Source: Spirochaetae bacterium HGW-Spirochaetae-4 (lineage in GTDB: Bacteria; Spirochaetota; Spirochaetia; Sphaerochaetales; Sphaerochaetaceae). Taken from it: a stretch of 57,209 bases of DNA. A program made the position numbers and the translations under genes. The notes below the pieces were generated by a model. That model was not told where the DNA came from, did no database searches, and worked only from the letters and a program-made list of their open reading frames with translations. Every line of letters begins with the position of its first letter. Within the stretch, counting starts at the first letter, position 1. Positions 1,631 to 5,603 of the stretch are shown piece by piece. The stretch spans positions 1 to 57,209 of the forward strand of contig PGXU01000017.1 in assembly GCA_002839335.1 (NCBI GenBank), given 5' to 3'.

Positions 1631-1660
1631 CATGTCCAGCAGGGGAATCCCCCCAGGACG

Positions 1661-1695
1661 CTTGCAGCGGGATGGAGGCAGTCGCCTCCTGCAAG
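1661..1695 (+). promoter_or_regulatory. Stem-loop in the leader of the Bpur-like gene
   Basis: Outer arms CTTGCA (1661-1666) and TGCAAG (1690-1695) flank a perfect inner hairpin GGAGGC-AGTC-GCCTCC (1674-1689), with a 7-nt bulge on the 5' side. A smaller GGGG-AAT-CCCC hairpin lies just upstream. No T run follows, so this is not a terminator. It precedes a gene whose Borrelia homologue binds RNA. Confidence 0.45.
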
Positions 1696-1733
1696 TGAAT
1701 CCGATAGACTGCCGATATTACAAGAGGTGTACA

Positions 1734-1976
1734 ATGGGAGTTCGTGGAGAAGTCTATTCAACGAAACTTGTTACCAATGACAGGACGTATTTCTTCAATG
1801 TGAAGGAAAATGTCTATGGTGATTTGTTTCTCAATATTGTGGAAAGCAAGGGAATGGAAGGGGGCTCGGGAAAATTCATCCGCCAGTCCATCCTGGTGTA
1901 TCAAGAGGACCTCGGGGAATTTGTCCAAGAGTTCCAGAAGACGCTCGATTTCCTCAAGCAGACCGCAAAGAAGTAA
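1734..1976 (+). CDS. Bpur-like PUR-domain nucleic-acid-binding protein (DUF3276)
   Basis: An 80-residue protein, [19 protein letters not shown] onward, with the compact beta-beta-beta-alpha PUR repeat that dimerises to form a full PUR fold. The [27 protein letters not shown] and F-R-SI-VY motifs match Bpur of Borrelia, which binds single-stranded DNA and RNA and affects gene expression. The start is the ATG at 1734 after AAGAGGTG; the frame is open further upstream only because it crosses the tRNA. No clear promoter is visible between the tRNA terminator and this gene, so it may depend on read-through. Confidence 0.85.
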
Positions 1977-2063: not shown

Positions 2064-2618
2064 TCAATATCTGAACGTCAGACGTTGGATGGGGCTGGGT
2101 CCGAATGTTCGGCAAGCTTCCAAATGGGCTTTCGTCGGGTAGCCCTTATGACCGGCGTATCCCCATTGCGGATATTTCCTATCCATCAACACCATCAAAT
2201 TGTCACGTGCAGTCTTGGCCAAGATCGAAGCGGCCATAATCTCGAAGACGGAATCGTCACCTTTCACCACAGCCTGGCAGGGTAGCGTAAACGGGGGAGT
2301 CCTGTTTCCATCGACCAGGATGAGGTCGACATGAACTCCGCTACGTTCGATTTTCGCATACGCCCGTTGCATGGCATGCATCGTCGCTTGCAGGATATTC
2401 ACCGTATCGATTTCCGCTCTGCTCGACCATGCGACCGCCCATGCCAGCGAGCGCTGCTTTATGACAATCTCGGCCGCTTCCCGGCGCTTCTGGGACAGCT
2501 TCTTTGAATCGGCGAGTATCTCGAAGGGGAAGTCTTTCGGCAACACGACCGCAGCGGCACACACCGGACCTGCGATCGGTCCCCGTCCAGCTTCATCGAT
2601 ACCACATATGTTGACCAT
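2064..2618 (-). CDS. rnhB: Ribonuclease HII
   Basis: A 184-residue enzyme that cuts RNA in RNA-DNA hybrids and removes misincorporated ribonucleotides. The N-terminal GIDEAGRG motif supplies the first Asp-Glu pair, the LVDGN segment the third acidic residue, and ASILAKTARD the fourth Asp region. The length fits a compact RNase HII without extensions. The ATG at 2618 has no ribosome site but follows a -10 box by 7 nt, suggesting a leaderless transcript. It is divergent from smc, with overlapping promoters. Confidence 0.95.
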   Translation of the reverse strand: MVNICGIDEAGRGPIAGPVCAAAVVLPKDFPFEILADSKKLSQKRREAAEIVIKQRSLAWAVAWSSRAEIDTVNILQATMHAMQRAYAKIERSGVHVDLILVDGNRTPPFTLPCQAVVKGDDSVFEIMAASILAKTARDNLMVLMDRKYPQWGYAGHKGYPTKAHLEACRTFGPSPIQRLTFRY

Positions 2619-2762: not shown

Positions 2763-5603
2763 TTGTTCCTCAAAAGCCTAGAATTATATGGATTCAAATC
2801 GTTCGCCGACAAGACCCGTCTGGAATTCGCAGATGGGACCACGTCGTTGCTCGGACCCAACGGATGCGGCAAAAGCAATATCGTGGATGCCATCAAATGG
2901 GTGCTCGGCGAACAATCCACCAAGACCCTCCGTGCGGGAAAAATGGAAGATGTGATCTTCAATGGCACCGAAACGCGCAAACCGTTGAATGTCGCGGAAG
3001 TCACGCTCGTCGTGAGCAACGAAGCAGGCCTGTTGCCGACCGAGCACACCGAGGTAGAGATCAAACGCCGGTTGTTCCGCAGCGGGGAAAGCGAGTTCTA
3101 CATAAACCGCAACCCTGTTCGCCTCAAGGATATCCGGGAACTGTTCTTCGATACCGGGGTCGGGAAATCGGCCTACTCGATACTCGAGCAGGGCAAGATA
3201 GACCAGATTTTGAGCCATAAGCCCGAAGATCGGCGCTATATCTTCGAGGAAGCCGCAGGAATCACCCGGTACAAGCTGAGGAGTTTGGAGGCGGCCCGGA
3301 AACTCGAACGGACCGAGGAGAATATCGAACAGGTCGATACCCTGCTGGGTGAGATCAAGCGGCAATATGATTCGCGCAAGGCGCAGGCCGCCAAGGCTGC
3401 CCGATACCGCGAGCTTGAGAAAGAGCAGTCTGTCATGGAAGTCGATGTGCAGTTGTCCACGGTCAAGTCGTTCCTGTTGCTCATAGATTCCAGAAAGGAA
3501 CAACTCTCCAAATCCCAGGCGGCCTACGACCAGCTCAAGGATGATATCGCATTTCAGACCCAGCAGATGGAGGATGAGCAGAGCGAGATCCGCCACCATG
3601 CCGAGACCCGGGTGAATATCCAGACAAGGATACAGCGGCTGGAGGAACAGCTCAACGGCAAGCGGGACCAATTGGAATTGCTCCAACAACGGTACCGCGA
3701 CTTCCTGCGCAGCAAGGATGAGGCCGATTCGCGCGCATCGCAGATATTGGAACGTATCGAGCGGGACGAGGAGGAACTCGAAACGCAACGTGACCATGCC
3801 CAGGTGCTGGCCGACACGATCGAGGAACTCGCCGAAAAGATCACGCACCATGAAACGCAGATGGCAGGCACCCAAAATCTCATCAAGGACCACGACCGGG
3901 AAATCGAGGAGCGCGAGGCGGCAATCTTGGCCGAGGAGGACATCCAGAAGGAACTCGGGTTGCAGTTGCAGGAGCTTACGGACAGGATAGTCGTCGAATT
4001 GGATGCGAAGATCAGTGAGAGCGGGTATTCGACCCAAGCACGCAAGAAAGCCGAGACAGCCTTCTCCGAGCGTTTGGAACGGATCAAGGTCGCCATGGCC
4101 GAACGGAAGGAATTCGGGAAGAAGCTCCAGGCGATGGTCGAATCCAAGGCTACGGAACCGAAGAGCGCCATGCAGGACTGGCAACGGTTCCTCGATGAGC
4201 TTGCACGATCGGTCGATGCCCTTTTCGAGCTGTTCGCCACCTATGGGAGGAGCCTCCCCAGTTTCATCGACGATTTGCTTGCTCCCGAAGGCATCATCAC
4301 CAAAAAGCATGCGATCGACAAGGATATGGCCGATTCCAGGGCAAAGACAACCGCACATCGGCAGTCCATTTCCACCTTGCGCGAGGAGAATCGCGGGTTG
4401 GCCGAATTGCTCGAGCAGTACAGGGAGCGGTTGACGCAACTGAAGGTTTCGTTGGGTGAGCACACTGCCCGGAGCGTCAGCACGAAGTCGTTGATAGAGA
4501 ATCTCGAGAAGAATGCCACCGAACAACGCTATCTGCATGGTGATGCCATCCGCGATGCCCAAGTCGCCCAACAGCGGGTCGAGGAGGCTGTCGAGCAGAT
4601 GGCGGTAGTCAGGGACGACCAGCAGCGCATCCACGATGAGAAGGACTCGCTCGAGGGACAACTTGTCGAGATTATCGAGGTCATAGAGCGCGAGAACGAA
4701 CGGATCAGCGGAGAGCGGCAGAAGATCAACCAGCGGTATACCGAATTGAACGAACTGCGTGGCACCATAGACAAGTATACATTCCACATCGAATCGATAC
4801 ACGAACAGATCCAAGGTGTCTACCGGAACTTCTTCGATACCTATGGCAAGAGCCTGAAGGAATTCGACGAACGTCTCGGTGAGGAAATCGGAGATATCGC
4901 CCAGTTGCGCGAGCGCCTGGCGCAGGTCAAGAAACAGATCCAAGGCATGGGGTACATCAACCACATGGCCGAGGAGGAGTTCGCCGAGATCAAGGAACGG
5001 TACGATTTCTTGACCCGGCAGATGGACGATCTGGTGAAGGCCAAGAACGACCTGACACGGGTTATCGAGGAGATCAAGAAGCGTTCGGAGGAGATGTTCC
5101 TCGATTCCTACCAGAAGATACGGGTGAATTTCCAACAGATGTTCCATCGCATGTTCGGTGGCGGACGTGCCGAGTTGCGTCTGCTTGATCCGGAGAATAT
5201 CCTGGAGTGCGGCATAGATATACTTGCCCAGCCACCCGGCAAGAAACTGGACCGGTTGGCACCGCTTTCCGGTGGTGAGAAGTCGTTGACCGCAGTCGCG
5301 CTGCTGTTCGCGACCTACAAGGTGAAACCTTCCCCGTTCTGTATCCTCGACGAGATCGACGCCGCATTGGATGATCGGAATATCGGGTATTTCCTGAGTG
5401 TCCTGGAGGATTTCAGTACATCCTCCCAGTTCATCATCATCACACACAACAAGCATACCGTCATGGGTTCCCAGACGTTGCTGGGGGTCACCATGCAGGA
5501 GCGGGGTGTGTCGAAGGCGATCAGCTATCGCATGGGATGGGAGGCCGACCAGGAGGTTATCCATGACATGCAGGTTGACACTGGCTCAGAAAATACAGTA
5601 TAA
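2763..5603 (+). CDS. smc: SMC-family chromosome segregation ATPase, short, no recognisable hinge
   Basis: A 946-residue protein with an ABC-type head split between its ends. Walker A GPNGCGKSN is at 31-39, the signature LSGGEKS near 835, Walker B CILDEID near 860, and two long coiled-coil arms lie between. I start at TTG 2763 (MFLKSLELYGFKSF), with GGGAG six bases upstream, because homologues begin there; the frame is open further upstream. Bacterial SMCs are usually about 1170-1190 residues with a globular hinge of about 150-200 residues. Here the middle (about 455-525) holds only a short segment including MQDWQRFLDELARS and LPSFIDDLL, with no glycine-rich hinge motif. It heads a probable operon with ffh. 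Confidence 0.9.
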   Translation: MFLKSLELYGFKSFADKTRLEFADGTTSLLGPNGCGKSNIVDAIKWVLGEQSTKTLRAGKMEDVIFNGTETRKPLNVAEVTLVVSNEAGLLPTEHTEVEIKRRLFRSGESEFYINRNPVRLKDIRELFFDTGVGKSAYSILEQGKIDQILSHKPEDRRYIFEEAAGITRYKLRSLEAARKLERTEENIEQVDTLLGEIKRQYDSRKAQAAKAARYRELEKEQSVMEVDVQLSTVKSFLLLIDSRKEQLSKSQAAYDQLKDDIAFQTQQMEDEQSEIRHHAETRVNIQTRIQRLEEQLNGKRDQLELLQQRYRDFLRSKDEADSRASQILERIERDEEELETQRDHAQVLADTIEELAEKITHHETQMAGTQNLIKDHDREIEEREAAILAEEDIQKELGLQLQELTDRIVVELDAKISESGYSTQARKKAETAFSERLERIKVAMAERKEFGKKLQAMVESKATEPKSAMQDWQRFLDELARSVDALFELFATYGRSLPSFIDDLLAPEGIITKKHAIDKDMADSRAKTTAHRQSISTLREENRGLAELLEQYRERLTQLKVSLGEHTARSVSTKSLIENLEKNATEQRYLHGDAIRDAQVAQQRVEEAVEQMAVVRDDQQRIHDEKDSLEGQLVEIIEVIERENERISGERQKINQRYTELNELRGTIDKYTFHIESIHEQIQGVYRNFFDTYGKSLKEFDERLGEEIGDIAQLRERLAQVKKQIQGMGYINHMAEEEFAEIKERYDFLTRQMDDLVKAKNDLTRVIEEIKKRSEEMFLDSYQKIRVNFQQMFHRMFGGGRAELRLLDPENILECGIDILAQPPGKKLDRLAPLSGGEKSLTAVALLFATYKVKPSPFCILDEIDAALDDRNIGYFLSVLEDFSTSSQFIIITHNKHTVMGSQTLLGVTMQERGVSKAISYRMGWEADQEVIHDMQVDTGSENTV

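Follow-up and report, generated by a model that had tools for sequence, protein, structure and literature searches.

A chromosomal SMC protein without a canonical hinge, and with a conserved, predicted helical tip in its place, in Spirochaetota

Results

The smc locus and its product

The window, meaning the whole stretch of 57,209 nucleotides analysed here (contig PGXU01000017.1 of Spirochaetae bacterium HGW-Spirochaetae-4), carries near its left end an smc gene preceded by rnhB and by a gene for a DUF3276 protein. The features of interest are the following.

1635-1976, forward strand: DUF3276 (PUR-domain-like) protein (Pfam DUF3276, 2.5e-13)
2064-2618, reverse strand: rnhB (RNase HII), upstream of smc and divergent from it (Pfam RNase_HII, 9e-33)
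2763-5603, forward strand: smc, 946 aa, with a TTG start and ending at the stop at 5603
2763-3257, forward strand: N-terminal ATPase head with Walker A, aligning with B. subtilis Smc (5xg3, 3zgx) through residue 217
3258-4022, forward strand: N-terminal coiled-coil arm, residues 166-420, about 255 residues (from AlphaFold2 helices and conservation)
4023-4292, forward strand: predicted helical tip in place of the hinge, residues 421-510 (from AlphaFold2 and profile comparisons)
4257-4328, forward strand: conserved motif 2 of the tip, residues 499-522, consensus PxFIDEFLAPEGIITKKRxID
4293-5072, forward strand: C-terminal coiled-coil arm, residues 511-770, about 260 residues
5073-5600, forward strand: C-terminal ATPase head with the SGGE signature (836) and Walker B LDEID (862)

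A purine-rich ribosome-binding site, GTGGGAG, lies at 2750-2756, just 5' of the TTG start. Pfam identified the neighbours of smc as DUF3276, RNase HII, SRP54, ribosomal protein S16 and RimM, and the jetA, jetB and jetD genes that accompany a Wadjet JetC were not among them. The order DUF3276/PUR, rnhB, smc recurs in a Borreliaceae-like genome (L215), where a homologous DUF3276 reading frame stands beside rnhB-smc.

The protein scored 813.7 bits against TIGR02168 (SMC_prok_B; cut-off 567.35) and matched Pfam SMC_N at 1e-70. Walker A (GPNGCGKS, residue 31), the signature and Walker B are all intact, as had been stated in the initial annotation, so that the split ABC ATPase head of bacterial SMC proteins is complete, and both head halves align with the heads of B. 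subtilis Smc in the PDB. It is the only chromosomal SMC of its genome. The kleisin and kite partners of a bacterial SMC, for which the initial annotation had advised a search, are both encoded elsewhere in the source genome by adjoining genes, scpA at C102:5649-6287 (E 4e-30) and scpB at C102:6521-6997 (E 1e-45). With 946 aa against 1186 aa in the control SMCs of Bacillus velezensis and Listeria, the protein is indeed some 240 residues short. Truncation, frameshift or assembly error was ruled out as the cause, the architecture being shared by 80 named contigs and by 53 sequences from about 50 families. By heads, partners and family score the protein is a bona fide SMC, but a hinge-less variant.

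Absence of the canonical hinge

No match to SMC_hinge (PF06470) was obtained in the 946-aa protein, either in a scan at E<=1 or in a second scan at E<=10. A search of the whole genome (3.6 Mb) at E<=10 gave none either, and no second, hinge-bearing SMC was found elsewhere in that genome. The same genome search returned PF06470 matches in 12 of the 14 named control genomes, E. coli and Sulfolobus being silent. Neither of these two is known to have a canonical SMC. In canonical control SMCs of Listeria, Bacillus, Fusobacterium, Tsukamurella and Azospirillum the hinge was matched at E-values between 1.6e-32 and 2e-5. A full hinge is also retained by two mycoplasma SMCs which, at 978-979 aa, are little longer than the spirochaete protein (PF06470 E 1e-27 and 5e-30), and shortness alone therefore does not remove the hinge. 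However, a genuine gammaproteobacterial SMC, that of Acinetobacter, used as a control, was missed by PF06470, so that silence of the model is weak evidence when taken alone and not decisive.

In the alignment the canonical hinge block including GGxxTGG falls against gaps in the spirochaete sequences, in which GGxxTGG is absent. Residues 440-540, which the initial annotation had singled out for a check, contain neither a hinge match nor a hinge fold, and only helices, not an alpha/beta arrangement, were predicted there. The canonical alpha/beta SMC_hinge of bacterial SMC proteins is thus missing, and the initial claim to this effect is borne out by the searches of protein and genome and by an all-helical predicted fold. 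Its description of the midpoint stands only for the missing glycine-rich pattern; the supposed 60 or so residues outside the coiled coil are instead a structured module, conserved and helical, which spans some 90-125 residues and has no predicted strand.

A conserved helical tip at the junction of the arms

This module, residues ~400-525 (positions 3957-4337), consists of a helical hairpin and a short turn helix. Motif 1, LxxITDDIVxxLDxxL (~402-417), marks the end of the N-terminal arm, within its last ~20 residues, and the consensus of motif 2 (499-519) forms the start of the C-terminal arm. Mean column entropy is 1.07 at 501-520 against ~2.0-2.7 in the surrounding arms, and, the heads apart, few stretches are as well conserved as the motif-2 turn; G510 and K515 are kept in all close relatives (80/80), and among the family representatives in 43/53 and 47/53, respectively.

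An AlphaFold2 model of the tip, a monomer prediction built on 76 aligned homologues, had a mean pLDDT of 90, a pTM of 0.62, helices only and zero strand. Its elements are an arm helix to residue 420, a hairpin of 424-460 and 466-497, a turn helix at 501-506 and an arm helix from 511; pLDDT by block ranged from 68 to 97, with the hairpin as the least confident part (68-88). The full-length model displayed the same all-helical tip.

In profile comparisons by hhalign the tip of Spirochaetia gave 97.7% against the tip of the other Spirochaetota classes, and against the long-arm families 88.5% were obtained from the Spirochaetia tip and 95.5% from that of the other classes. Values were ~1% against arm coiled coil and 0.3% against the Borreliaceae-like SMC, in which the motif is barely recognisable. 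As the tip matches other spirochaete tips and neither hinges nor arms, it is to be regarded as a specific domain, neither a hinge remnant nor a plain turn. That it could be an eroded canonical hinge, which kept a partial alpha/beta fold and diverged too far for profile models, draws some support from the missed Acinetobacter SMC, but is very improbable in view of the complete lack of predicted strand at high mean pLDDT, of profile values of 0.2-0.5% against canonical hinges versus 98% among spirochaetes, and of a length of ~90 residues versus ~115-120 for the Pfam hinge match alone in the controls.

Fold searches with the tip returned matches to long helices only (arms of B. subtilis and Pyrococcus Smc, the dynein stalk, PI3K iSH2, chemoreceptors), and since long helices reach their Z of ~12-13.5 as background, these matches neither single out a fold relative of the tip nor prove that its fold is new. 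A sequence search of the PDB with the profile of the tip retrieved generic coiled coils and designed bundles only, and relatives of the tip were found neither in a scan of viral contigs nor in a plasmid tblastn search. A zinc hook of the Rad50/SbcC kind was ruled out, CxxC being absent from the tips of the 53 family representatives and from the 946-aa protein.

Distribution across Spirochaetota

An SMC (TIGR02168, E<=1e-30) was detected in 371 of 393 Spirochaetota genomes, whose PF06470 matches over the Pfam cut-off numbered only two. Neither is an SMC, both being JetC of a near-identical Wadjet (anti-plasmid) operon. These JetC-like proteins (L198 857-3190 in G319:C22; L199 1038-4304 in G116:C27) are nearly identical in genomes of different families, which suggests recent horizontal transfer or contamination. 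Eight further matches below threshold occurred in the Borreliaceae-like family (f5); the one examined was phosphofructokinase-like and not an SMC, and the remaining seven share its position and frame length (561-573 aa). All representatives (53 sequences, ~50 families) have a hinge-less middle, and in a scan of 46 family representatives at E<=10 SMC_hinge was outside the 25 most frequent Pfam families. The conjecture in the initial annotation of a spirochaete-wide type holds for practically the entire phylum, given the 371 genomes with SMC and the assignment of both over-cut-off hinge matches to JetC.

Spirochaete SMCs range from ~817 to ~1120 aa, the long forms having longer arms and a longer hairpin with the same motif. 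Those of ~1070-1120 aa (L188-L191 and L193, from families f34, f51, f44, f52 and f47) are hinge-less with a tip segment of 113-123 residues, and the shortest, of 817 aa, is that of the Borreliaceae-like genome, a label inferred partly from its gene order (DUF3276-rnhB-smc) and its TTG start codon. The length of the hairpin is variable, and in one lineage it is nearly lost: an 864-aa SMC from the family of the source genome (L196 266-2857, in G319:C19) has a hairpin of ~32 residues and keeps the turn as PVFVDELL.

In a tree of the head domains Spirochaetota stood together, except that Fusobacterium was placed within them, beside the long Borreliaceae-like branch, with a low support of 71, which is probably due to long-branch attraction. 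The tree agrees with a single origin of the hinge-less spirochaete SMC, which is likely, not proven.

ScpA was present in 212 and ScpB in 214 of 247 Spirochaetota genomes. Neither was found by Pfam in the Borreliaceae-like family, the ScpA of which may be too diverged for the Pfam model, given the homologue reported in B. burgdorferi (PMC10406323). Five genomes of one family of the same class (f9; G149, G238, G266, G298 and G318; 94-99% complete, 1.5-2.4 Mb) had no SMC at TIGR02168 E<=1e-30, and in the two of them tested, G149 and G238, ScpA and ScpB were absent as well. In G246 (family f13), with an 892-aa SMC in which the tip motif is hard to recognise, ScpB was found and ScpA was not (E<=0.001). 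ScpA and ScpB were present and no SMC was found in G011 (family f31), possibly owing to assembly loss or to a very divergent SMC.

Discussion

Computational analysis establishes that the canonical hinge is absent from spirochaete SMC and that a conserved, homologous and predicted all-helical tip is found phylum-wide, with heads intact and ScpA and ScpB retained. The initial observation is borne out, and it extends further than was first described. Searches of open-access full text brought up no mention of a hinge-less spirochaete SMC, and earlier notice in subscription literature or preprints is possible.

The explanation that we consider quite probable is that of an ordinary SMC-ScpAB condensin in which the hinge toroid was replaced early in Spirochaetota by a helical tip that likely serves as dimerisation point. 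The 946-aa protein would then be orthologous to the chromosomal condensin SMC that acts with ScpAB, except that, where the two arms meet, the alpha/beta toroid gave way to an all-helical tip of ~90-125 residues, while the heads would bind ATP and ScpAB as usual. Since ScpAB and heads were kept, the complex should stay an SMC dimer closed by the kleisin, which calls for another contact in place of the hinge. For this contact the conserved turn is the obvious candidate: its hydrophobic residues F501, L505 and L506, together with G510 and K515 and the surrounding helices, may join two SMC chains, and a closed SMC-kleisin ring with arms of ~255-260 residues would still form. That a foreign dimerising element can take over from the hinge is known from B. 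subtilis, where Smc carrying a Rad50 zinc hook for its hinge supported normal growth on rich medium, and where arms of 253-267 aa, the size estimated for the spirochaete arms, were functional (PMC5344682). Against the explanation stand the pTM of 0.62 of the tip model with the hairpin as its least confident part, the varying length of the hairpin and its near loss in one lineage, and the barely recognisable motif of the Borreliaceae-like SMC.

Two other roles of the tip have to be considered. If it were not a dimerisation domain at all, permanent contact at a hinge would be lacking, the chains would touch each other just at their heads, by way of ATP and ScpAB, or with their arms, and an open clamp would form instead of a ring. 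The variable hairpin, nearly lost in one lineage, would agree with this, but a passive end-cap would not need so strongly conserved a turn motif, ScpA and ScpB have been kept, and B. subtilis Smc is inactive once hinge dimerisation is lost (PMC5344682); an open clamp is hence unlikely. Alternatively, the tip might dock a separate partner protein which links two SMCs or loads DNA, and the conserved turn, with its G and K, could serve protein binding; the MukB hinge binds topoisomerase IV and MatP according to a reference title in PMC10123090. Against this hetero-hinge, which we regard as very improbable, stands that no candidate partner was identified, short of a systematic search.

Under the preferred explanation, replacement of the toroid by a dimerising helical tip, the ring would fold and tether DNA, presumably without a single-strand gate for passing obstacles. 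In Wadjet the hinge toroid was shown to be the gate through which large obstacles are bypassed, and loops are extruded without it (PMC12647877). Lack of the toroid means lack of its central channel, and should hence mean lack of the single-strand bypass gate of canonical hinges. Spirochaete SMCs, with a helical tip that has no known channel, should consequently extrude loops but not bypass via the hinge. The wider statement, that the whole phylum runs an SMC-ScpAB free of the hinge toroid, following a single replacement by an unrelated helical dimerisation fold and without a single-strand bypass gate, appears rather probable.

The hinge is treated as universal among SMC motors and as part of their definition, and there is debate about what it does. 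In recent work the toroid was proposed as a gate for obstacle bypass that is not required for loop extrusion (PMC12647877), and it was proposed that in B. subtilis chromosomes segregate irrespective of the hinge fold (PMC5344682). Both ideas become testable in nature with a phylum that lost the toroid and kept ScpAB: spirochaete SMC would be expected to compact DNA and to be poor in the passage of transcription complexes. If true, this would amount to an ancient, natural hinge-swap experiment.

Comparison with known systems

With the B. subtilis-type SMC-ScpAB (TIGR02168) the spirochaete complex has in common the heads, the ATPase motifs, antiparallel arms and the partners ScpA and ScpB, whereas SMC_hinge is missing, a helical tip is predicted instead and the arms measure ~255-260 versus 344 residues.

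The SMC of Borrelia burgdorferi (BB0045), published as a 'canonical Smc protein' (PMC10406323), shares the TTG start and a smc gene that follows DUF3276 and rnhB (as seen in the Borreliaceae-like genome; for the start codon of B. burgdorferi smc see also PMC9712426), and no hinge domain was found in it either. Unlike the source SMC, the Borrelia-type protein has 817 aa and a shorter tip, a hairpin segment of ~58 residues, and ScpA and ScpB, present with the source SMC, were not found in the Borreliaceae-like family, though PMC10406323 reports an ScpA homologue in B. burgdorferi. In B. burgdorferi SMC is brought to the origin by ParB (PMC9712426), and the chromosome-arm alignment absent from Hi-C maps was ascribed to the missing ScpB (PMC10406323); lack of the hinge toroid may be an alternative or additional cause.

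Like the Rad50/SbcC zinc hook and the B. subtilis zinc-hook Smc chimera (PMC5344682), the tip would be a dimerisation element unrelated to the hinge that ends SMC-like arms. It differs from both in having no CxxC and in being natural, phylum-wide and, as predicted, helical.

MukB, MksB and Wadjet JetC are likewise SMC-like proteins with non-standard hinges, but in spirochaetes the protein is a genuine SMC, accompanied by ScpAB. Some Wadjet hinges are without a channel, and the lengthened arms of these Wadjets were read as compensation (PMC12647877), whereas spirochaete arms are short, and it is this opposite direction of arm length that makes the spirochaete case informative.
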